DNA of 13,508 bases, from positions 1 through 13,508 of the forward strand of contig JAFRCB010000350.1 of NCBI GenBank assembly GCA_017404585.1. The letters run 5' to 3'. Positions 1,698 to 10,079 of this stretch are shown here, in pieces. Under the pieces are notes generated by a model. The model was not told the origin of the DNA. It made no database searches and was given only the letters and a program-made list of their open reading frames with translations. The DNA is from Lachnospiraceae bacterium (GTDB lineage Bacteria; Bacillota; Clostridia; Lachnospirales; Lachnospiraceae). Positions within the stretch are counted from its first letter, which is position 1, and each line of letters starts with the position of its first letter. The position numbers were made by a program, and so were the translations under genes.

Positions 1698-2336
1698 ATG
1701 GGTAAAAGGATTATTGCTGTCAATGCCGGACCCAGGATGGGCTGGAACACGGAAACTCTGATTTCCGAGGCGTCAAAAGGAGCGGAATCTATGGGTGCGG
1801 AGGTAGAACGTTTTGATTTGTTCCGCCTTGAAAAAAAGTATACCGGCTGTATTTCCTGCTTCGGGTGCAAGAAGGAGAAGTTCAAGGGACATTGTATCTG
1901 CAGAGACGGACTTACCCCTGTGTTGGACGCAATCCGGGAAGCGGACGGTCTGATCATCGGGTCTCCGAACTATCTCGGAGAACTGACGGCGTCCTTCCGC
2001 GCGCTCTATGAACGGCTGATTTTTCAGAATCTGACTTACAATCGTGAAACGCCGAGCTGTAATGAGCGGGAGATTCCCGTGCTGCTCATTATGACCAGTA
2101 ACGCGCCGGATTTCATGTATCGGAGTCTGCTGCGGAATTATAAGCAATCGTTGAGCCGTTTCGTGGGACCGACAGAACTTTTTGTCAGCGGCGATACTCT
2201 TCAGCTAAAGGATTACAGTAAGACTGACTGGCAGTGGACGATGTTCAATCCTGAGGCAAAGCAGAAGAGACATGATAAGGTATTCCCGCAGGAGTGCAGG
2301 AAAGTATATGAAAAGGGTGCCGCCCTTGTCCGATAA
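1698..2336 (+). CDS. Flavodoxin-fold NAD(P)H-dependent oxidoreductase, iron-sulfur-flavoprotein-like
   Basis: 212 aa of the NADPH-dependent FMN reductase / iron-sulfur flavoprotein superfamily. The N-terminus (KRIIAVNAGPRMGWNTETL, residues 3-21) is the FMN phosphate-binding loop region after the first beta strand. A cysteine cluster follows at C51, C54, C57, C66 and C68 (CISCFGC, then CIC), placed where iron-sulfur flavoproteins carry their cluster ligands. DGLIIGSPNYLGELTASFRALYERL (residues about 83-107) is the usual second flavin-contacting segment. The predicted role is a cytoplasmic electron-transfer or quinone/flavin reductase; the substrate is unknown. The start is set by GGAGGAG a few nt upstream (about 1684-1690). 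The gene stands alone, with 153 nt before it containing only a poor promoter candidate (TATAGT at 1644-1649 without a good -35), and the next gene has its own promoter. Whether the cysteines bind a cluster or zinc is not decidable from sequence. Confidence 0.82.
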   Translation: MGKRIIAVNAGPRMGWNTETLISEASKGAESMGAEVERFDLFRLEKKYTGCISCFGCKKEKFKGHCICRDGLTPVLDAIREADGLIIGSPNYLGELTASFRALYERLIFQNLTYNRETPSCNEREIPVLLIMTSNAPDFMYRSLLRNYKQSLSRFVGPTELFVSGDTLQLKDYSKTDWQWTMFNPEAKQKRHDKVFPQECRKVYEKGAALVR

Positions 2337-2338
2337 AA

Positions 2339-2366
2339 GGCAGCCGAAAAGTTCAGACAGGCTGCC
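2339..2366 (+). terminator. Possible weak terminator hairpin after the flavoprotein gene
   Basis: A 7-bp perfect inverted repeat, GGCAGCC / GGCTGCC (2339-2345 and 2360-2366), with a 14-nt loop begins 2 nt after the stop codon. No proper T-run follows (next bases are ACTGGAATTTAATC), so intrinsic termination would be inefficient; it may only be a 3' stabilising stem. Confidence 0.35.
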
Positions 2367-2462
2367 ACTGGAATTTAATCAGCAGCAAACATCATCTTCA
2401 TCGAAAAACGCAGGTCCTACCGACAGTCTGGAGGGAGAGATGCGGAAAATGATGATATTTGC

Positions 2463-2491
2463 TTGACAGGAAATGAAAAAGCAGGTATATT
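2463..2491 (+). promoter_or_regulatory. Sigma-A promoter of the DUF2325 / chimera unit
   Basis: TTGACA (2463-2468), a 17-nt spacer, then TATATT (2486-2491): a perfect -35, ideal spacing and a 5/6 -10. Transcription should start near 2498, leaving a leader of about 84 nt that contains three separate inverted repeats. This is among the best promoters in the window, and a promoter this strong with a palindrome downstream suggests a repressed, inducible unit. Confidence 0.8.
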
Positions 2492-2529
2492 GTTAGTGAC
2501 AACAAACCGGCGCGCGGGCTGTGCGCCGG
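2490..2529 (+). promoter_or_regulatory. Two dyads at the transcription start: TTGTT-N6-AACAA and a GC-rich 7-bp hairpin
   Basis: TTGTT (2490-2494) and AACAA (2501-2505) form a dyad overlapping the -10 edge and the likely start site. It is followed at once by CCGGCGC (2507-2513) / GCGCCGG (2523-2529), a 7-bp perfect GC stem with a 9-nt loop. The first could be an operator. The second would be a stable structure at the 5' end of the leader RNA, possibly for mRNA stability. No T-run follows, so it is not a terminator. Confidence 0.45.
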
Positions 2530-2543
2530 CAATTATAAACATG

Positions 2544-2565
2544 TCGGTTAGGTATAGCTAACCGA
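2544..2565 (+). promoter_or_regulatory. Metal-repressor-type palindrome in the leader, just before the DUF2325 ribosome site
   Basis: TCGGTTAG-GTATAG-CTAACCGA is a perfect 8-bp inverted repeat with 6-nt centre. Aligned on its centre with the palindrome at 3551-3572 it shares GTTAGG-N-A-N-A-(G/C)-CTAACC, 14 of 17 core positions. Half-sites of the TTAGG/CCTAA kind are typical of DtxR, IdeR and MntR family repressors, although the exact spacing here differs from the classic DtxR consensus. The site lies about 45-65 nt downstream of the predicted start point and 5 nt before the AGGAGG, so it could act as a repressor roadblock or as an RNA hairpin near the ribosome site. Confidence 0.6.
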
Positions 2566-2581
2566 GAGCAGGAGGTAATTC

Positions 2582-2872
2582 ATGAGCGTAGTGATTCTTG
2601 GCGGGAATGAGTGCATGGAGAGACAATATACAAATGCATGTCGGAAATACGGATGCAAGGCCAAGGTATTCTGCAAGCCCTGCGCGGATATGAGCAGCAG
2701 GATAGGATCACCGGATCTCCTCATTGTGTTCACACATACAATTTCCCACAAAATGCTTAAGTGTGCACTGACCGGAATTCGCGGGAACACGAAGATCGTA
2801 CGGTCGCATACCAGTTCTATGAAGTCTCTCAAGGATATTTTAAGCGAACACGCATGCGGCGCGGCTGTGTAA
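2582..2872 (+). CDS. DUF2325 family protein
   Basis: A 96-aa protein matching the DUF2325 pattern: SVVILGGNECMERQY at the N-terminus (GGN loop, residues 7-9), KYGCKAKVFC (22-31), IGSPDLLIVFTHTISHKM (positions about 41-58, with the conserved SHKM) and a C-terminal IVRSHTSSMKSLKDIL. It looks like a small Rossmann-type domain. It carries six cysteines (C11, C20, C25, C31, C34, C62) plus one near the C-terminus, suggestive of metal or redox chemistry, but no biochemical function is established for the family to my knowledge. Start confirmed by AGGAGG at about 2570-2575, 6 nt before the ATG. It is the first gene after the 2463 promoter and is followed 57 nt later by the chimeric gene, so both are likely on one transcript. 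Family members often sit near ferrous-iron genes in Firmicutes, in line with the operators here. Confidence 0.85.
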   Translation: MSVVILGGNECMERQYTNACRKYGCKAKVFCKPCADMSSRIGSPDLLIVFTHTISHKMLKCALTGIRGNTKIVRSHTSSMKSLKDILSEHACGAAV

Positions 2873-2929
2873 AGATGTGAAATCATTTTGCGGATGCAGA
2901 AAATGAATCATATGGGGAGGTTTTAACGG

Positions 2930-3415
2930 ATGCCGGAACGATTATTGATCGATCATTGTTCACCGACGCTGGCAGGCCTGAAAACAGGAAATATGTTTCC
3001 GGTAAATGTAGGACCCGGGCAGGACATCTGCGACGAGCTGAGACAACTGAACAGGCTGCTTCGGGAGAAAGGGATCCGCGTTGTGATGCTCCGGAGGAAT
3101 GGTAAAAAGGCTTTGGTGTATCTGTACAGACCGGATTATCTGGACAGGGATCTCCGATGTCCGGCTATGGGTGACGAGGTCCTTGAAGAGAGCGAATTCG
3201 ATCCGATGTTCACGGATGTGGAGCCGGCTCTTGCAGGCAAAAAGATTGCTCTGTTCGGCTCTTACGGATGGGGTGACGGACAGTGGATGCGCGACTGGGA
3301 AGACCGCTGCCGGGAAGCCGGAGCGGAACTTGCGGCGGACAGTGTAATTGCCAATGAAGCCCCCGGAGATGAGGAAACAGAACTGTGCAAGGGTCTCGGC
3401 GCTGCGCTGGCCTGA
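2930..3415 (+). CDS. Chimeric protein: N-terminal half of DUF3793 joined to the C-terminal half of a flavodoxin
   Basis: Residues 1 to about 75 match the start of DUF3793 proteins (IDHCSPTLAGLKTGNMFPV at 7-25; LNRLLREKGIRVVMLRRNGK at 40-59; ALVYLYRPDYLDRDL at 61-75). Residues about 77 to 161 match the second half of a Clostridium-type flavodoxin: CPAMGDEVLEESEFDPMF, then GKKIALFGSYGWGDGQWMRDW (positions about 103-123), and the expected C-terminal end. Compared with C. beijerinckii flavodoxin it lacks about the first 52 residues, including the FMN phosphate-binding SGTGNT loop. Compared with DUF3793 it lacks roughly the last 110 residues. The junction is at about 3143-3163 and stays in frame. 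GGGGAGG at 2914-2920 supports the start. The simplest reading is an in-frame deletion that fused two adjacent genes, or an assembly collapse. Normal FMN binding looks unlikely. Transcribed with DUF2325. Confidence 0.85.
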   Translation: MPERLLIDHCSPTLAGLKTGNMFPVNVGPGQDICDELRQLNRLLREKGIRVVMLRRNGKKALVYLYRPDYLDRDLRCPAMGDEVLEESEFDPMFTDVEPALAGKKIALFGSYGWGDGQWMRDWEDRCREAGAELAADSVIANEAPGDEETELCKGLGAALA

Positions 3416-3476
3416 TAGAACTTGTTGCGGCCAATCAACCGGAAAATGATTAGCTTATAAAAACCAGATTACGAAA

Positions 3477-3511
3477 AAGCGAGACTGTAAAGCGTAAACC
3501 CCGTTTCGCTT
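3477..3511. repeat. Imperfect inverted repeat between the two iron-linked units
   Basis: AAGCGAGAC (3477-3485) can pair with GTTTCGCTT (3503-3511) through 9 bp including one G-U pair, with a 17-nt loop. On the plus strand only TAAAGCTTGATTT follows, a poor T-run. On the minus strand a TTTTTCG tail follows, but no minus-strand gene ends here. It may be a weak terminator for the chimeric gene; otherwise no function is visible. The rest of 3416-3516 shows nothing I can interpret. Confidence 0.3.
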
Positions 3512-3516
3512 AAAGC

Positions 3517-3544
3517 TTGATTTATTCGAAAAAAGGAATATAAT
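3517..3544 (+). promoter_or_regulatory. Sigma-A promoter of the membrane protein / P-type ATPase / methyltransferase operon
   Basis: TTGATT (3517-3522), 16-nt spacer, then a perfect TATAAT (3539-3544). Transcription would begin near 3551, exactly where the GTTAGG palindrome begins, so a bound repressor would cover the start site. The -10 box also overlaps the left arm of the longer hairpin at 3542-3581. Confidence 0.75.
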
Positions 3545-3586
3545 AAGACATTAGTTAGGAAAACCTAACCTGTGTCTTATTTTTTT
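3542..3586 (+). promoter_or_regulatory. Metal-repressor-type operator that also forms a T-tailed terminator hairpin
   Basis: Core GTTAGG-AAAA-CCTAAC (3554-3569) lies at the predicted start site and matches the leader palindrome at 2544-2565. It is nested in a longer inverted repeat, AATAAGACA (3542-3550) / TGTCTTATT (3573-3581), separated from the core by a 3x3 internal mismatch. The run of seven T at 3580-3586 makes the whole 40-nt stem a Rho-independent terminator for RNA arriving from the upstream chimeric gene. RNA starting at the local promoter would contain only the inner 6-bp core. A further half-site GGTTAG occurs at 3594-3599. The regulator itself is not in the window; DtxR/IdeR/MntR family is my inference from the half-sites. 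Confidence 0.65.
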
Positions 3587-3635
3587 GCATCATGGTTAGC
3601 TAGAACAAATACAGCGTGATAAGGAGGAGCTTTAT

Positions 3636-3932
3636 ATGTCTATCGGAGGAAGAGTTGCATGGTTTATCGGCGGAGCGCTTTTTGGATCTGCGGGTCTGCG
3701 GGTCCTGTCCGGCAGGGATGCCAGAAAGGTCTATACTCATGCCACAGCGGCGACGCTCCGCTGTAAGGATGAGGTGATGAAGCACGTGGAACTCGTCCAG
3801 GAGGGCTGCTCGGATATTTTTGAAGATGCAAAGCAGATCAACGAGAAGCGCAGAAAAGAAGAGGCAGAATACATCGGAGATTTCGCGAAGACGGATGAAA
3901 CCGAATTTGCAGAAGAGAGCAGCGAGAAATGA
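3636..3932 (+). CDS. DUF6110-like small glycine-zipper membrane protein (candidate FezA-type ferrosome protein)
   Basis: 98 aa. Residues about 4-25 form one membrane segment with a glycine-zipper pattern (GGRVAWFIGGALFGSAGLRVL; small residues at 12, 13, 17, 20). A charged, mostly helical cytoplasmic tail follows, very rich in Glu and Lys after residue 65, ending in an acidic stretch. This matches the DUF6110 type of short protein that I recall next to P1B ATPases in Firmicutes. An excellent AAGGAGG at 3621-3627 with 8-nt spacing fixes the start. Its stop overlaps the ATPase start as ATGA, so the two are translationally coupled. In ferrosome systems a small membrane protein (FezA) works with a P1B-6 ATPase (FezB) to build iron-phosphate organelles; the gene pairing, size and iron-type operator here fit that. 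The specific identity is inference. Confidence 0.75.
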   Translation: MSIGGRVAWFIGGALFGSAGLRVLSGRDARKVYTHATAATLRCKDEVMKHVELVQEGCSDIFEDAKQINEKRRKEEAEYIGDFAKTDETEFAEESSEK

Positions 3933-6082
3933 GATTTCGAATCTTGCATGACATTCCCGGCAGGATGCGTCTTCGGGCGGATGTTCGCTCGATGAGCACA
4001 GAGCAGGCGGACGTTCTTGAGGCGTGGATCAAAACATTGCCGGGAGTTGACCGGGTAACGGTTCATGAACGGACGCGCAGCGTAACGGTGGTTTATCATG
4101 GGGAACGCAGGAAACTTTGCGGGTCACTTGCCTCTTTTACTTATGAGAGCGCGGAAAAGTCGCTGGGACCGCAGCCGTCCGGCAGCCGGTTAATGAACCG
4201 GGAGTACAAGGAAAAGTTGGTCTTCCTTGTTATCAGACACTTCGCAAGGCGTTTCCTGCTGCCAAATCCACTTCGGCGCGTGCTTTCAATCTGCAGGACA
4301 TGTCCGAGAATAATAAAAGGCGTAAAAGCTGCTGCGGCAGGGCATCTGACGGTGGAGGTACTTGACGGCATCGCCATCGGAACGTCGCTTGTCACGGGAG
4401 ACTATACAACTGCCGGATCGGTCAATTTTCTGCTGAGAGTAGGCGAAATACTTGACGAATGGACACACAAGAAGTCTGTAGATGATCTGGCAAGAAGCAT
4501 GTCTCTGCAGGTGGATCAGGTATGGAAACTCGGAGACGACGAGACTCCGGAGATAACCCCGCTTGGCAGCATTGCTCCGGGAGACCGGATCGTCGTTCAT
4601 ACGGGACACGTCCTGCCGCTTGACGGAATTCTTGAGCGCGGGGATGTCATGCTGAACCAGGCATCGCTGACCGGAGAGAGTGTACCTGTCGCGAAGCATC
4701 CGGGATCGGCGGTGTATGCGGGTTCTGTTCTCGAGGAAGGCAGCTGTGTACTTCGCGTTACGCATGCGACCGGGGAGAACCGGTACGACCGGATCGTTCG
4801 TATGATAGAAGAGTCGGAACGTCTTAAGTCAGGGGTGGAGAACAGAGCGGGCCATCTGGCTGACAGCCTTGTTCCGTGGTGCCTCGGAGGCAGTATTCTC
4901 ACTTATCTTCTGACGCGGAACACCACCAGGGCGGTGTCTGTTCTCATGGTGGACTTTTCCTGCGCGCTGAAGCTTTCCATGCCGCTGAGCGTTCTTTCAG
5001 CCATGCGTGAGGCAGGCGGCCACCATATCACTGTAAAAGGCGGACGCTTCATGGAGAAGATCAGCGAGGCGGATACCGTGATCTTCGACAAGACCGGTAC
5101 ACTCACGAAAGCATGTCCTACTGTTGCAGAGGTGGTGCCTTTTAACGGGGAAGACGCGCGTGAGATGCTTCGCATGGCAGCATGCCTGGAAGAACATTTT
5201 CCGCATTCTGTAGCAAATGCGGTCGTAAAGGCAGCCAAAGAGCAGGGACTTTCCCATCGCGAGATGCACAGTGAAGTAGAGTATGTTGTCGCCCATGGAA
5301 TTGCGACAAGGATTAACGGAAGACGGGCTATCATAGGCAGTTCTCATTTTGTTTTTGAAGATGAAGGTGTGAGAATCCGTCCGGAAGATCGGGAGAGATT
5401 CCACTCTCTGCCGGAATCCGTTTCCTGGCTTTATTTCGGGATCGGAGGTGTTCTCTGCGCGGCGATCGGTATTTCAGATCCGCTGAGACCGGAAGCACGG
5501 AACATCATGGAAGCCCTTCGGCGGGAAGGAATCGTTAAGACGGTCATGCTGACGGGGGACAACAGGAGAGTCGCCGGCGCTATTTCTGCAGATCTTGCTC
5601 TTGATGACTACAGAGCGGAGGTCCTTCCGGAAGACAAGGCAGCCTATATCCGCAGGGAGCATGAGGCAGGCAGAACTGTGATCATGGTCGGTGACGGGAT
5701 CAACGATACCCCGGCACTCTCGCTTTCAGATGTAGGGGTCGCTGTCGGCAGCGGGGCTGTCATTGCGAGGGAGGTTGCGGACGTCACGATAGAGACGGAA
5801 GACATACGCGAACTCGTGTGGCTGAAGCGGCTCAGTGATGCCCTGATGAGGAGAATCCACCGTAACTACCGCTTTGTCATGGGATTTAACGGTACATTGA
5901 TTGCGCTTGGAGCGCTTGGTTTGATTACACCCGCAGCCGGCGCCTTCCTTCACAACTCATCAACTATACTGCTCAGTATGAACTGCCTTACGGCGCTTTT
6001 GGAGAAAGAGAGTGGGCGACGTTCTCGCACGAGCCCACATTCGACGGCCTACAGACTGTCTTTAGAGAGGAACTACAGGTGA
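3929..6082 (+). CDS. P1B-type metal-translocating ATPase, probable FezB-like (P1B-6) iron transporter
   Basis: 717 aa. N-terminal ~60 residues form a divergent HMA-like domain without the CxxC metal site but with an arginine-rich IPGRMRLR (9-16). P-type motifs in order: TGES (248-251, actuator), FSCALKLSMP (343-352, the transmembrane metal site), DKTGT (387-391, phosphorylated Asp387), TGDN (542-545) and VGDGINDTPAL (587-597). The usual CPC/SPC of Cu, Zn or Co pumps is FSC here: only the second Cys (C345) remains. The P1B HP dipeptide region reads HFPHS (423-427), with Ser where Pro is common. Such departures point away from copper and zinc towards iron or manganese. Coupled to the upstream small membrane protein (ATGA overlap) and to the downstream methyltransferase (GTGA overlap). 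Operator and partner suggest iron loading of ferrosome-like compartments or ferrous iron efflux. P-type ATPase is certain; ferrosome role is inference. Confidence 0.9.
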   Translation: MRFRILHDIPGRMRLRADVRSMSTEQADVLEAWIKTLPGVDRVTVHERTRSVTVVYHGERRKLCGSLASFTYESAEKSLGPQPSGSRLMNREYKEKLVFLVIRHFARRFLLPNPLRRVLSICRTCPRIIKGVKAAAAGHLTVEVLDGIAIGTSLVTGDYTTAGSVNFLLRVGEILDEWTHKKSVDDLARSMSLQVDQVWKLGDDETPEITPLGSIAPGDRIVVHTGHVLPLDGILERGDVMLNQASLTGESVPVAKHPGSAVYAGSVLEEGSCVLRVTHATGENRYDRIVRMIEESERLKSGVENRAGHLADSLVPWCLGGSILTYLLTRNTTRAVSVLMVDFSCALKLSMPLSVLSAMREAGGHHITVKGGRFMEKISEADTVIFDKTGTLTKACPTVAEVVPFNGEDAREMLRMAACLEEHFPHSVANAVVKAAKEQGLSHREMHSEVEYVVAHGIATRINGRRAIIGSSHFVFEDEGVRIRPEDRERFHSLPESVSWLYFGIGGVLCAAIGISDPLRPEARNIMEALRREGIVKTVMLTGDNRRVAGAISADLALDDYRAEVLPEDKAAYIRREHEAGRTVIMVGDGINDTPALSLSDVGVAVGSGAVIAREVADVTIETEDIRELVWLKRLSDALMRRIHRNYRFVMGFNGTLIALGALGLITPAAGAFLHNSSTILLSMNCLTALLEKESGRRSRTSPHSTAYRLSLERNYR

Positions 6083-7428
6083 AAACAGAAAAACAATACA
6101 AAGATCTGACGATCCGGGAATTTACAAAAGCGGCGGATATTTATGAGAGCAGCCATGCGGGTATCTACGAGATGTGCAAAGATGACTATCCGTACATTTC
6201 GGGCGAGCTTGCGAAGGAGGATTACATAGACCTTCTGGACTGCGGCTGCGGGACCGGTCCGATGATTTCTCTGCTTTACGAGGCAGATCCATCCAGGCAT
6301 TATACGGGGATCGACATCACACCGCGCATGATCGAGGTGGCCAGGGCAAAAAATTTGCCCGGCGTCACGTGGGTGGTCGGTGATTGTGAGAATTTGCCGT
6401 TTGACGATAATGCGTTTGATGTCATCATTTGCTCCAACAGCTTTCACCACTATCCGAATCCTCAGAAGTTTTTCGACAGCGCGCAGCGCGTTCTGCGGCC
6501 GGGCGGCAGACTGATCCTGCAGGATTACACGGCTCCGGCACCTGTTCTGTGGCTCATGAATCATACGGAGATGCCGCTTGCCAATCTGATTGGTCACGGG
6601 GATGTCGGTGCCTATTCGCTGGATGAGGTGAGAAGATTCTGCGGAAAATCCGGACTGCGGGTCGAAAAGCTTGAACGGGGCAGGAAATTCCGGCTGCATC
6701 TGGTGGCCAGAAAGGGGCCGGTGCCGGAACCTCAGAGAAACGACAGTCTGACCAGAAAAGAGCAGATCAAAAATGCGTATAAGCTGACCGGGAGCAAATC
6801 GGGTTTCTATGATGGAATGATGACCTATTCTACGCTGCCCGGAAAGACGATCTGCCGTCTGGTCTGGAACATGGATGGTCAAAAGAACCTCCGGTATCTG
6901 GAAAAGGCTCTGTCCGGGGTGCCGCAGGATTTTGAAGGAAAGCTTCTTGAGGTGCCCGTCGGGACCGGCGTGCTGACCATGCCGGTGTATGCGGATCTTC
7001 CGAAAGCAGACATTACCTGCCTTGATTACTCGGAGAAAATGATGGCTTCCGCCCGGGAAAAGGCGGAGACGATGGGGATAGCGAACATTAAGTTCGTACA
7101 GGGAGACGTGGGCTCGCTTCCGTTTGAAGACGAATCTTTTGATGTTGTCCTGTCATTGAACGGTTTTCATGCCTTCCCGGATAAGGAGGCGGCTTACCGT
7201 GAGACATACCTTGTGCTGAAAAAGGGCGGTATTTTCTGCGGCTGCTTTTATATTAAAGGCGAGTGCGGCCGCACGGACTGGTTCATCGATCATCTGTATG
7301 GACCGAAAGGCTTCTTCACACCGCCTTATGAGACGAGGGAGAGCCTCAGACAGCAGCTTGAGCAGAGGTACGAGAAGGTGAAGACGACAGCGGTCGAAGG
7401 GATCGGCTGCTTTCGTTGCAGGAAATAA
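6079..7428 (+). CDS. Tandem double class I SAM-dependent methyltransferase
   Basis: 449 aa made of two complete methyltransferase domains. Domain 1 (about 1-213) has motif I LLDCGCGTGP (52-61), acidic D79 in YTGIDI, GDCENLPF (101-108), FDVIICSNSFHHY and RPGGRLILQDY. Domain 2 (about 243-445) has LLEVPVGTGVL (289-299), CLDYS (314-318), QGDVGSLPF (341-349), VVLSLNGFHAFPDKEAAY, KKGGIFCGCFYIKGE and GFFTPPYET. Domain 2 resembles a stand-alone ~200-aa clostridial methyltransferase family; a charged linker at 214-240 joins them. The start is GTG at 6079, overlapping the ATPase stop (GTGA), with GAGAGG at 6065-6070, 8 nt upstream. Motif I of domain 2 (EVPVGTG) is atypical but SAM-compatible. Substrate unknown. 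Coupling to the ATPase suggests a role in metal homeostasis or membrane/lipid modification, but that is only context. Last gene of the operon. Confidence 0.85.
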   Translation: MKTEKQYKDLTIREFTKAADIYESSHAGIYEMCKDDYPYISGELAKEDYIDLLDCGCGTGPMISLLYEADPSRHYTGIDITPRMIEVARAKNLPGVTWVVGDCENLPFDDNAFDVIICSNSFHHYPNPQKFFDSAQRVLRPGGRLILQDYTAPAPVLWLMNHTEMPLANLIGHGDVGAYSLDEVRRFCGKSGLRVEKLERGRKFRLHLVARKGPVPEPQRNDSLTRKEQIKNAYKLTGSKSGFYDGMMTYSTLPGKTICRLVWNMDGQKNLRYLEKALSGVPQDFEGKLLEVPVGTGVLTMPVYADLPKADITCLDYSEKMMASAREKAETMGIANIKFVQGDVGSLPFEDESFDVVLSLNGFHAFPDKEAAYRETYLVLKKGGIFCGCFYIKGECGRTDWFIDHLYGPKGFFTPPYETRESLRQQLEQRYEKVKTTAVEGIGCFRCRK

Positions 7429-7630: not shown

Positions 7631-8719
7631 ATGAATAAAAACCCATTTAAACCTACTTTTGGAAGTATCCCGGTCGCAATGGCAGGCAGAGAGACGATCA
7701 TCCATGATATATTGGAGGGACTTGACAATGCTCCTGGAGATCCGAACCGAGCCAGCATACTGATTGGAGCAAGAGGCACAGGAAAGACAGTTCTGCTCGC
7801 CTCAATAGCGGAAAAGGCACAGGAACAAGGATGGATCAGTATCAATGTCACTAGTGGTCCGGGAATGCTTGACGAAATAATTGTTCAGGCACGAAGCAAG
7901 GCAGCTCATCTCTTATCAACTGAAACTAAAGTGCATCTGTCCGGTATTCAGCTTGGAACGTTTGGAATAACACTCGAACGAAACGCATTACAATCTACAT
8001 GGAGAGAAGAAATGACCCGTATTGTACGGGAACTTAATGAGCAGGGAACCGGTCTTTTGATTACGGTGGATGAAATATCACCTCAACACGAACAGCTGCG
8101 CCTGCTCGCGGATGTATTTCAGCACTTTGTAAGAGAGAGACGAGATACGGCTCTTCTTCTCGCGGGACTTCCGGGAAATGTTTCCCTGATATTAAGAGAT
8201 GACACCATTTCTTTTCTCCGCAGAGCATTTCAGCACCAACTGGGGGCAATAGATATTAACGATGTTTCCTATGCTATTCAGCTGACTGTCGAGGCAGGAG
8301 GAAGGAAAATCGCAGGGGACGCTCTTGATATAGCTGCAGAATCTACAGGAGGTTTTGCTTTTATGATTCAGCTGGTGGGGTATCATATGTGGCGCCAGCA
8401 TCCTGATTTGATGCAGATCACGAAGGAGGATGCGCAGGCAGGTGTGCGCTATGCTTCGAGAGATTTGGATAAAATGATTTTTGATACAGTAGTGAGAGAG
8501 CTGACAACGCGAGAGGAGGAATTTCTGCTTGCCATGGCAAAAAACAAGGGTGTCAGTTCTGTCAGAGAATTGGCAGGGCAGCTGGGAATTGAGCCAAATA
8601 ATGCTTCTCAGATCCGCAGAAGACTGATTGCCCGAGGATTGATTGCGGACCATGGCAGAGGAAAAGTTGTCTTCGACATGCCGCTTCTCAGAGAATATCT
8701 GCTCAGGGAGATGGATTAG
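7631..8719 (+). CDS. AAA ATPase with C-terminal winged-helix DNA-binding domain
   Basis: 362 aa. After a short N-terminal segment (AGRETIIHDILEGL, 18-31, typical of Orc/Cdc6- and AAA_16-like ATPases) comes Walker A GARGTGKT (46-53) and Walker B LLITVDEI (142-149, D147-E148). The sensor-like strand TALLLAGLPG (173-182) and helical lid region follow. Residues about 290-350 look like a winged helix (ELTTREEEFLLAMA, SVRELAGQLGI, NASQIRRRLIARGLI, GKVVFDMP). The architecture resembles Orc1/Cdc6 or STAND-like ATPases, but in Firmicutes such proteins are common uncharacterised ATP-binding proteins, often near mobile DNA. GAGAGG at 7617-7622 with 8-nt spacing supports the start. It stands alone, between its own promoter and the next gene's, and its base composition is more AT-rich than its neighbours, which suggests transfer. 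Target unknown. Confidence 0.8.
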   Translation: MNKNPFKPTFGSIPVAMAGRETIIHDILEGLDNAPGDPNRASILIGARGTGKTVLLASIAEKAQEQGWISINVTSGPGMLDEIIVQARSKAAHLLSTETKVHLSGIQLGTFGITLERNALQSTWREEMTRIVRELNEQGTGLLITVDEISPQHEQLRLLADVFQHFVRERRDTALLLAGLPGNVSLILRDDTISFLRRAFQHQLGAIDINDVSYAIQLTVEAGGRKIAGDALDIAAESTGGFAFMIQLVGYHMWRQHPDLMQITKEDAQAGVRYASRDLDKMIFDTVVRELTTREEEFLLAMAKNKGVSSVRELAGQLGIEPNNASQIRRRLIARGLIADHGRGKVVFDMPLLREYLLREMD

Positions 8720-8738
8720 AAGTAAGTTCGGGATAGGA

Positions 8739-8767
8739 TTGACAAGTGACCCCTCGTTCACTATAAT
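8739..8767 (+). promoter_or_regulatory. Perfect sigma-A promoter of the esterase-like gene
   Basis: TTGACA (8739-8744), a 17-nt spacer and TATAAT (8762-8767): consensus at every position. Both boxes are covered by the 44-bp palindrome at 8744-8787, so this promoter must be tightly repressed when the site is occupied. Confidence 0.9.
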
Positions 8768-8787
8768 GAGTGAACGGAGGGTCACTT
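8744..8787 (+). promoter_or_regulatory. 44-bp palindrome, double TetR-type operator, also T-tailed
   Basis: Arms of 19 nt (8744-8762 and 8769-8787) around ATAATG, paired except for two adjacent positions. Each arm is itself a dyad: AGTGA-N8-TCACT at 8745-8762 and again at 8769-8786, giving four half-sites in regular array, the layout expected for two TetR-family dimers. The stem is followed by T8786-T8790 and begins 24 nt after the AAA ATPase stop, so it can also serve as that gene's terminator. The TetR gene at 10156 is the obvious candidate binder (inference). Confidence 0.75.
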
Positions 8788-8804
8788 TTTGCGAGGATAT
8801 AGAT

Positions 8805-10079
8805 ATGAGAGTATTAAAGAAAATTATCAAGGTCTTATTATGGCTGTTTCTTGTAATGGTTCTTGGATTAGCCGCTCTGGATATTTATATGATAAAAAAA
8901 CCGGAACAGGACGCAAAGAAAAAAATTGACGGGATGGAAGAGTTAGCTTGCCCGGTAGAGGACTTGACAATTGATGAAAAAGTAAAAGTCATCAGCCTCG
9001 GTGAAGCATCTCACGGGAATGCGGAGTTTCAGGAGCTAAAGCTCGACGTTCTGAAAGTTCTGGTCGAGAAATATGATGTCAGCAGCTTTGCCATGGAAAT
9101 GGATTACGGAGAGGGTGTAATTATAAACGATTACATAAGCGGTCACTCCGGGATGACGATCGATGAGGTGATGGACCGTATCAGTTTCAGGATTTACAGA
9201 ACTGAAGAAATCCGCGGCCTGATTGAATGGATGAGGGAATACAATGATTTGCATGATGACGGGTTGTCATTTTATGGGTTTGATCTTCAGAACCCTGAAG
9301 TGGATCTGGCACTGATCCGGGATTTCGTCAAAGAAAACTCTATAGACGGGGATCCGGCAGGTGCATTTGAACCTTTTGTGAACGGCGAAGCCAGTCTCAG
9401 GGATGAAAGCCTGAACCATGCCTTTGAAGAGCTGGACAGCCTGAGAAACGAACTTCAAGGCAATAAAGAGACATATCGGGATCTGTATAACTATGATCGG
9501 ATGTTGGTTTGTATTGAAAATGTTTTCAGAGCCAGAGAACTTTCCGCGAGGTATGCCGGAGAAAACGGCATGGTCGAAGGCGGCGGGTACCGTGATCAGA
9601 TGATGGCAAAAAAGGTCATAGAGATATCTGAGACATTAGAGAATTCAAGGATGATGATAACCGGGCATAACGGGCATATCGGTTACGCCGGAAATTTCGT
9701 GAGAACGATGGGGTCGTTCATCCGAGATGAGCTGGACGATGCTTACTTTGCCATCGGTACAGATTATTTCATAACTAAATGCAATATGCCGGACAGCAGC
9801 GGCAAAAGGTCTGACCACAGGTTTGTTTCCGCTGACATTTTAGCCTATCAGGCAAAGGACCTGGGGACATACTATCTGGATTTCTCCGGGGTTAGCAAAG
9901 ACTCCGACGTCTATAAATATATAAATGAACCGATCTATACAGGCAGCCTTGGAGAAAGCTACAATATTCTGAATACGATTCTTCAGGATACGGTCAGGAT
10001 CTACTGTGAACCTGACTATCTGTACGATTCGATGATTTTTGTTTATGAGTGTACACCGCTGAACCTGTTGGCTAAATAG
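8805..10079 (+). CDS. Membrane-anchored erythromycin-esterase-family protein
   Basis: 424 aa from the ATG at 8805. The frame stays open upstream into the previous gene, but this start has GAGG at 8793-8796, lies after the promoter, and leads straight into a signal-anchor. Residues 2-8 are basic (RVLKKIIK) and about 9-27 hydrophobic (LLWLFLVMVLGLAALDIYM). The rest matches the erythromycin esterase (EreA/EreB) fold: SLGEASHGNAEF at about 66-77, holding the GExxHG catalytic motif, FAMEMDYGEG, FYGFDLQ, and MMITGHNGHIGYAG with the conserved His pair. Known Ere enzymes hydrolyse the lactone of 14-membered macrolides in the cytoplasm; this one should sit outside the membrane, so a macrolide substrate is far from assured. 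Many homologues have unknown substrates. The TetR gene follows 76 nt downstream, in the same direction. Confidence 0.85.
   Translation: MRVLKKIIKVLLWLFLVMVLGLAALDIYMIKKPEQDAKKKIDGMEELACPVEDLTIDEKVKVISLGEASHGNAEFQELKLDVLKVLVEKYDVSSFAMEMDYGEGVIINDYISGHSGMTIDEVMDRISFRIYRTEEIRGLIEWMREYNDLHDDGLSFYGFDLQNPEVDLALIRDFVKENSIDGDPAGAFEPFVNGEASLRDESLNHAFEELDSLRNELQGNKETYRDLYNYDRMLVCIENVFRARELSARYAGENGMVEGGGYRDQMMAKKVIEISETLENSRMMITGHNGHIGYAGNFVRTMGSFIRDELDDAYFAIGTDYFITKCNMPDSSGKRSDHRFVSADILAYQAKDLGTYYLDFSGVSKDSDVYKYINEPIYTGSLGESYNILNTILQDTVRIYCEPDYLYDSMIFVYECTPLNLLAK

Follow-up and report, generated by a model that had tools for sequence, protein, structure and literature searches.

The window analyzed here, a stretch of 13,508 nucleotides from a Lachnospiraceae bacterium (genome G000), contains on its forward strand an open reading frame (ORF) at 2930-3415 that encodes 161 residues and joins the front of a DUF3793 protein to the back of a flavodoxin in a single frame. 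Pfam profile searches match residues 6-89 to PF12672 (DUF3793; profile positions 1-76 of 167, E 3.4e-14) with a score of 53.6 bits, above the Pfam cut-off of 25.1. Residues 88-153 match PF00258 (Flavodoxin_1; profile positions 69-139 of 143, E 2.4e-4) with 21.7 bits, under the Pfam cut-off of 25, and residues 75-160 match the NCBIfam flavodoxin model PRK05568 (model positions 54-139 of 142, E 6.6e-31) with 107.5 bits, under the family cut-off of 206. Alignment with congeners assigns the first 76 codons (2930-3157) to DUF3793 and the remainder, including the stop codon (3158-3415), to residues ~56-140 of a flavodoxin of the short-chain type. The switch falls at codon 77, in a TGTCCGG stretch at 3158-3164 that partially matches relatives of both parent genes: up to codon 76 the sequence tracks the DUF3793 gene of L194 (82% identity across residues 1-78), and from codon 77 onwards it tracks the flavodoxin of G025 (96%). 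A previous sequence-only reading had proposed an in-frame chimera of about 75 DUF3793 and about 85 flavodoxin residues joined within 3143-3163; profiles and congener alignment bear out the composition and place the joint within one codon of that range.

As that reading had also claimed, both the phosphate loop of the flavodoxin (SGTGNT) and the C-terminal part of DUF3793, its final ~110-125 residues, are missing from the ORF; flavodoxin strands 1-3 are absent as well. Among 45 intact relatives, phosphate-loop columns G13 and T15 are invariant and S10, T12 and N14 nearly so, and the invariant C-terminal DUF3793 residues P112, H113, E114, G116, P122, G141, W143, K144 and Y146 all lie beyond the joint and are absent. 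Spanning model positions 54-139 of 142, the flavodoxin part falls short of the complete five-stranded fold of ~140 residues. It keeps CPAMGDE and GSYGWGDG, which we take to be the two flavin-ring loops of short-chain flavodoxins.

The signals ahead of the fused gene are in place, in agreement with the earlier claim of an intact promoter and ribosome site. A Shine-Dalgarno-like GGGGAGG can be read at 2914-2920 (forward strand) before the intact ATG at 2930, and a sigma-70-like promoter, TTGACA-17-TATATT (2463-2491, forward strand; identified solely by its agreement with the consensus, at 11 of 12 positions), lies upstream of the small operon; the region contains 5 such promoter-like sites, compared with 1.6 in shuffled sequence. 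The first gene of the operon, at 2582-2872 (forward strand), encodes an intact DUF2325 protein (E 1.5e-26). Motif search identified a TTAG-N6-CTAA inverted repeat before this operon (2548-2561, forward strand) and a second one (3555-3568, forward strand) before the operon encoding a DUF6110 protein (3636-3932) and a heavy-metal P-type ATPase (3929-6082), both on the forward strand, intact by profile and syntenic in G025. The motif occurs twice in the window against 0.10 expected (0 of 200 shuffles had two), is also present in G025, and presumably resembles a DtxR-like metal-regulator box. The two matching boxes suggest that one metal-responsive regulator may control both neighbouring operons. 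Induction of flavodoxin by low iron is described for C. difficile (PMC6311696), which fits this metal-box setting. Elsewhere in the window, a NADPH-dependent FMN reductase-like gene (1698-2336) lies between CobK and DUF2325, which in G025 are separated by only about 210 bp. Downstream, 6079-7428 encodes a tandem pair of methyltransferase domains in one protein, followed by an Orc1/Cdc6-like ATPase (7631-8719, a weak match) and an erythromycin-esterase-like protein (8643-10079) far under family cut-offs.

To elucidate the origin of the fusion, we compared the locus with those of its relatives. Complete DUF3793 and flavodoxin genes lie adjacent on the same strand in the congeners G020, G022, G035 and others; the pair spans 1,025 bp in G035 and 486 bp in the window, and thus about 540 bp appear to have been lost. 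At the joint, the DUF3793-side relative L194 carries TGTCC and the flavodoxin-side relative G025 carries TGCCCGG, both being relatives rather than the true parents. The window tracks L194 up to TGTCC and then the G025 flavodoxin through TGCCCGGCTATGGG, with TGT at the joint codon where the flavodoxin-side relative has TGC, so the alignment indicates that the stretch common to both parents may amount to a few bases, perhaps about five. The complete tandem genes, together with what may be a short common stretch at the joint, uphold the proposal of a single internal deletion between neighbours. In L194 itself (Eubacterium sp. RGIG2473, 2300-4000), no flavodoxin match is found at the locus, and a gene resembling DUF6110 and a frame resembling an ATPase come directly after the intact DUF3793 gene.

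The same pair is broken in other members of the genus, each in its own way. In the closest relative, G025 (RUG13328), the locus is flanked by the same genes and carries another deletion: DUF3793 is cut after residue 21, the flavodoxin restarts at about its 12th residue and the ATG is lost. At this joint, the only one with a clear common stretch, relatives of both parents have AACCGGAAATA (11 bp) in common, and ACCGGAAATA (10 bp), which forms its core, is the longest sequence common to the two genes of the intact G035 pair. In G432, about 148 residues of DUF3793 run in frame into the final residues of flavodoxin; the joint of G028 is out of frame; and G011 retains only about 38 DUF3793 residues, followed by an intact flavodoxin. 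Beyond weak matches inside longer proteins, no short-chain flavodoxin was found elsewhere in G000, G025, G028 or G432, a statement limited for G000 by an assembly that is 65% complete in 361 contigs. What G000 does retain is a flavodoxin-like protein of 135 aa and a 416-aa frame containing a match to flavodoxin.

Breakages recur in named records. Among the best 80 of 155 loci, obtained with a query that itself favours such cases, the flavodoxin is cut at its front in seven (L136, L140, L191, L199, L201, L203 and L209; L175, which ends with its contig, was not counted), and DUF3793 is cut beside a whole flavodoxin in two (L162 and L168). RUG11089 (L140) represents a further deletion fusion of the pair, with its joint out of frame, and the order sample contributed another in-frame fusion, G370 (L103). 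AD3010 and INlla14, suspected fusions on the basis of match spans, were rejected because their flavodoxin precedes DUF3793. Two of the broken loci, RM5 (L162) and V9D3004 (L199), have record titles without a MAG label and look like isolates, which makes it unlikely that all of these breakages are assembly errors. L199 (Lachnospiraceae bacterium V9D3004, about 2200-2800) and the database proteins P0015 and P0066 are half-flavodoxins without the phosphate loop, in which the start codon and first residues are joined in frame to (E/D)YD-IAFGCPAMG.

We also searched the protein database, listing the best 120 of 7,966 and the best 120 of 7,999 matches and reading 33 sequences. These include at least 11 fusions or read-throughs of the pair (P0002, P0003, P0010, P0014, P0017, P0020, P0097, P0111, P0121, P0125 and P0126), the joints of which differ by eye, and three proteins (P0122-P0124) in which a shifted DUF3793 back half runs into flavodoxin. 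Two sisters known from one contig each, P0001 and P0012, have nearly the same joint as the window, and P0011 starts at it. Compared with the three reading frames of the window, and with DNA deduced from protein, the flavodoxin half of P0012 lies in a different frame from DUF3793, and P0001 shows a frame switch inside DUF3793 and a disturbed C-terminus; judged from these proteins, the sister allele seems frameshifted. Fusions of the pair recur, as the search of related genomes and database proteins reveals, and a widespread and ancient architecture, with one joint found in several lineages, was not observed: the joints read differ, only the close sisters P0001 and P0012 nearly match, and the corresponding locus of G025 was shortened by another deletion. 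Within the literature collection searched, no publication linked flavodoxin, pseudogene, deletion and Lachnospiraceae; for DUF3793 only a fungus study surfaced, and DUF2325 was co-mentioned with flavodoxin in one publication.

Taken together, these data make it quite probable that a recent deletion at a short repeat destroyed both genes, that the frame was kept by chance, and that the product is a non-functional relic. The chimeric ORF, the separate parents in relatives and the different joints in relatives are direct observations. Under the proposed mechanism, a short stretch common to the adjacent DUF3793 and flavodoxin genes (TGTCC or slightly longer) would have formed the ends of a deletion of about 540 bp, which would have removed the back of DUF3793 and the front of flavodoxin; the frame would have survived by chance, leaving the promoter and ribosome site ahead of a relic. 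We infer slippage or annealing at short repeats as the mechanism, and the timing and the loss of function are likewise inferred. The window fusion would then be one of several separate deletions of this iron-linked pair within the genus.

The possibility that the fusion is a new functional protein, in which the N-terminal alpha/beta unit of DUF3793 serves as a partner or cap for the half flavodoxin and is selected in frame, appears very unlikely, even though frame, start and ribosome site are intact. Relative to G025, the flavodoxin part shows 18 synonymous changes but just 4 non-synonymous ones (dN/dS 0.05; P 5e-9 against neutrality). This strong purifying pattern would favour such a protein; yet the window and G025 fusions arose separately, so most of the divergence may predate them, and the apparent lack of decay so far in this part fits a young deletion as well as continued use. 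There is also a slight excess of in-frame joints, which account for five of the seven cases at DNA level (G000, G025, G432, G370 and L168, with G028 and RUG11089 out of frame), a weak result with P 0.045 against an expectation of one third and P 0.096 against 0.40, the latter being derived from the 206 of 502 common stretches of at least 6 bp that are in phase in seven intact pairs. An AlphaFold2 model of the fusion preserves the predicted secondary structure of the DUF3793 half; against a functional product, its pTM is 0.49, residues 71-83 around the joint fall under 50 pLDDT, and its eight PDB matches at E <= 0.001 are all flavodoxins, over 82-84 columns with TM 0.39-0.46. Furthermore, the phosphate loop for FMN is missing, the sister allele seems out of frame, and no joint is common to any two fusions read except P0001 and P0012, which argues against a common product under selection. 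Nor does profile comparison reveal any kinship between DUF3793 and flavodoxin (probability 0.1%) that would make the two interchangeable. Where the sequence-only reading had left a choice between a newly made protein and a decaying relic, the lack of a coherent model, the missing phosphate loop and the seemingly frameshifted sister favour the relic. The idea that two complete genes were collapsed in the contig by assembly or library preparation has little to commend it beyond the draft state of the genome, and we regard it as highly improbable. The usual k-mers of assemblers are far longer than the few bases of homology at the joint, nearly the same joint is present on two other contigs (P0001 and P0012, with 1 and 10 member sequences, respectively), and related breakages appear in the isolate-looking RM5 and V9D3004. 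We therefore regard the locus as a real, young-looking, in-frame deletion fusion, one of a series and most likely without function.

To assess whether the pair is broken unusually often, we compared its frequency of breakage with that of other genes and of the order. Across the 42 genomes that represent the genus, breakage affects 5 of 18 DUF3793 loci; Pfam identified 16 of these genomes (three broken: G000, G028 and G432), and the G025 and G011 remnants were found with the fusion protein as a more sensitive query, which covered the genus except G428-G432. Within this set of genomes, DUF2325 is close to its full length in 17 of 18 cases (the short one being in G010), and CbiJ is cut inside a contig in none of 29 genomes, with one extra partial copy in G033. 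The order sample comprises 220 genomes with DUF3793, of which 147 were listed with 150 places, each covering at least 156 of 167 profile positions; 31 further genomes, meant as the weakest, were re-searched (G057 was not among them), and the figure includes 41 genomes besides G000 that were not viewed place by place. Seven order genomes were scored as broken (G366, G296, G348, G370, G278, G338 and G414, the last a sub-cut-off match whose sequence was not read). One in-frame stop in each of G246, G119 and the second G077 copy was not scored as breakage, and G064 (a 43-aa match), G308 and G231 (contig ends) and G220 (two overlapping matches) were left out. Scoring the four genomes with stops or split matches as broken yields 11 of 219.

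These counts bear on whether loss of the pair was favoured, and not merely tolerated, with flavodoxin and DUF3793 switched off in a gut niche that is rich in iron or special in some other way. This explanation concerns the cause of the deletions and can be compatible with a deletion that left a relic; we consider it unlikely, though deserving of some weight. Breakage in the genus (5/18, with the more sensitive query on the DUF3793 side) exceeds that in the order sample (7/219; Fisher P 0.0008) and that of CbiJ (0/29; P 0.006), and the excess persists like for like with Pfam on both sides (3/16; P 0.023 and P 0.04, respectively). The apparent youth of the deletions points in the same direction, as does the length of the stretches common to the two genes, which in seven intact pairs are no longer than expected by chance. 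Against favoured loss, the comparison with the operon neighbour DUF2325 (1/18) is not significant, either for 5/18 with the more sensitive query (Fisher P 0.18) or for the Pfam-only 3/16 (P 0.32), the like-for-like comparison with the order weakens to P 0.06 at 11/219, and relaxed constraint would yield the same picture. Since the search that found the two remnants was more sensitive than those run for the controls, an excess of breakage in the genus is likely but not firm, with no significant excess over DUF2325. The fusion itself is ordinary in kind; what is unusual is how often the pair is broken, on statistics that are modest.

Several simple accounts of the joints and their recurrence were considered and discarded. 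Sequence kinship of the two families does not account for the joints, given the profile comparison above and a DUF3793 model that matches nothing in the PDB at E <= 0.001. Unusually long repeats were not found in the seven intact pairs, where the longest common stretch is 8-11 bp and codon shuffles reach the observed length in 7% to 99.5% of cases. Finally, P0017, P0001 and P0012 break at the flavodoxin CPAMG, and most of the joints read lie elsewhere, which speaks against a common breakage site.

As a single case, the window illustrates the making of an in-frame chimera from two unrelated proteins in one step. As a series, the five breakages in the genus and at least 11 database fusions with differing joints constitute a natural experiment on the fate of in-frame fusions, which may be retained or only transient. 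They concern a gene pair that certain gut bacteria seemingly discard often and of which one half has an unknown fold and function. A tentative and rather doubtful generalization is that the DUF3793-flavodoxin pair of rumen and gut Lachnospiraceae is a hot locus, where recurrent, young deletions often leave chimeras or half-flavodoxins, driven by niche-favoured loss or by an unknown process. DUF3793 is itself of interest: the model of an intact member (m9d683c397866, from L006:740-1342) is confident (pLDDT 88.4) and matches no PDB entry at E <= 0.001, so that this family of unknown function possibly has a new predicted fold.

In comparison with known systems, residues 77-161 of the fusion keep the flavin-ring loops and C-terminal half of a short-chain flavodoxin (Clostridium beijerinckii / Megasphaera elsdenii type; PRK05568, TIGR01753). 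Unlike such a protein, this flavodoxin part has half the length, lacks strands 1-3 and the phosphate loop, and does not score above the family cut-off. Its first 76 residues resemble DUF3793 (PF12672) at a score over the Pfam cut-off, without the conserved C-terminal FPHEIG, GYP-EDV and G-WKVY motifs of that family. The closest parallel for its origin is RecA-independent recombination between short direct repeats, as described in PMC5426353. Unlike the deletions described there, the window case is deduced by comparison alone and its common stretch may span only ~five bases; as in those deletions, nearby sequences would have been joined at a short common stretch with loss of the intervening DNA.
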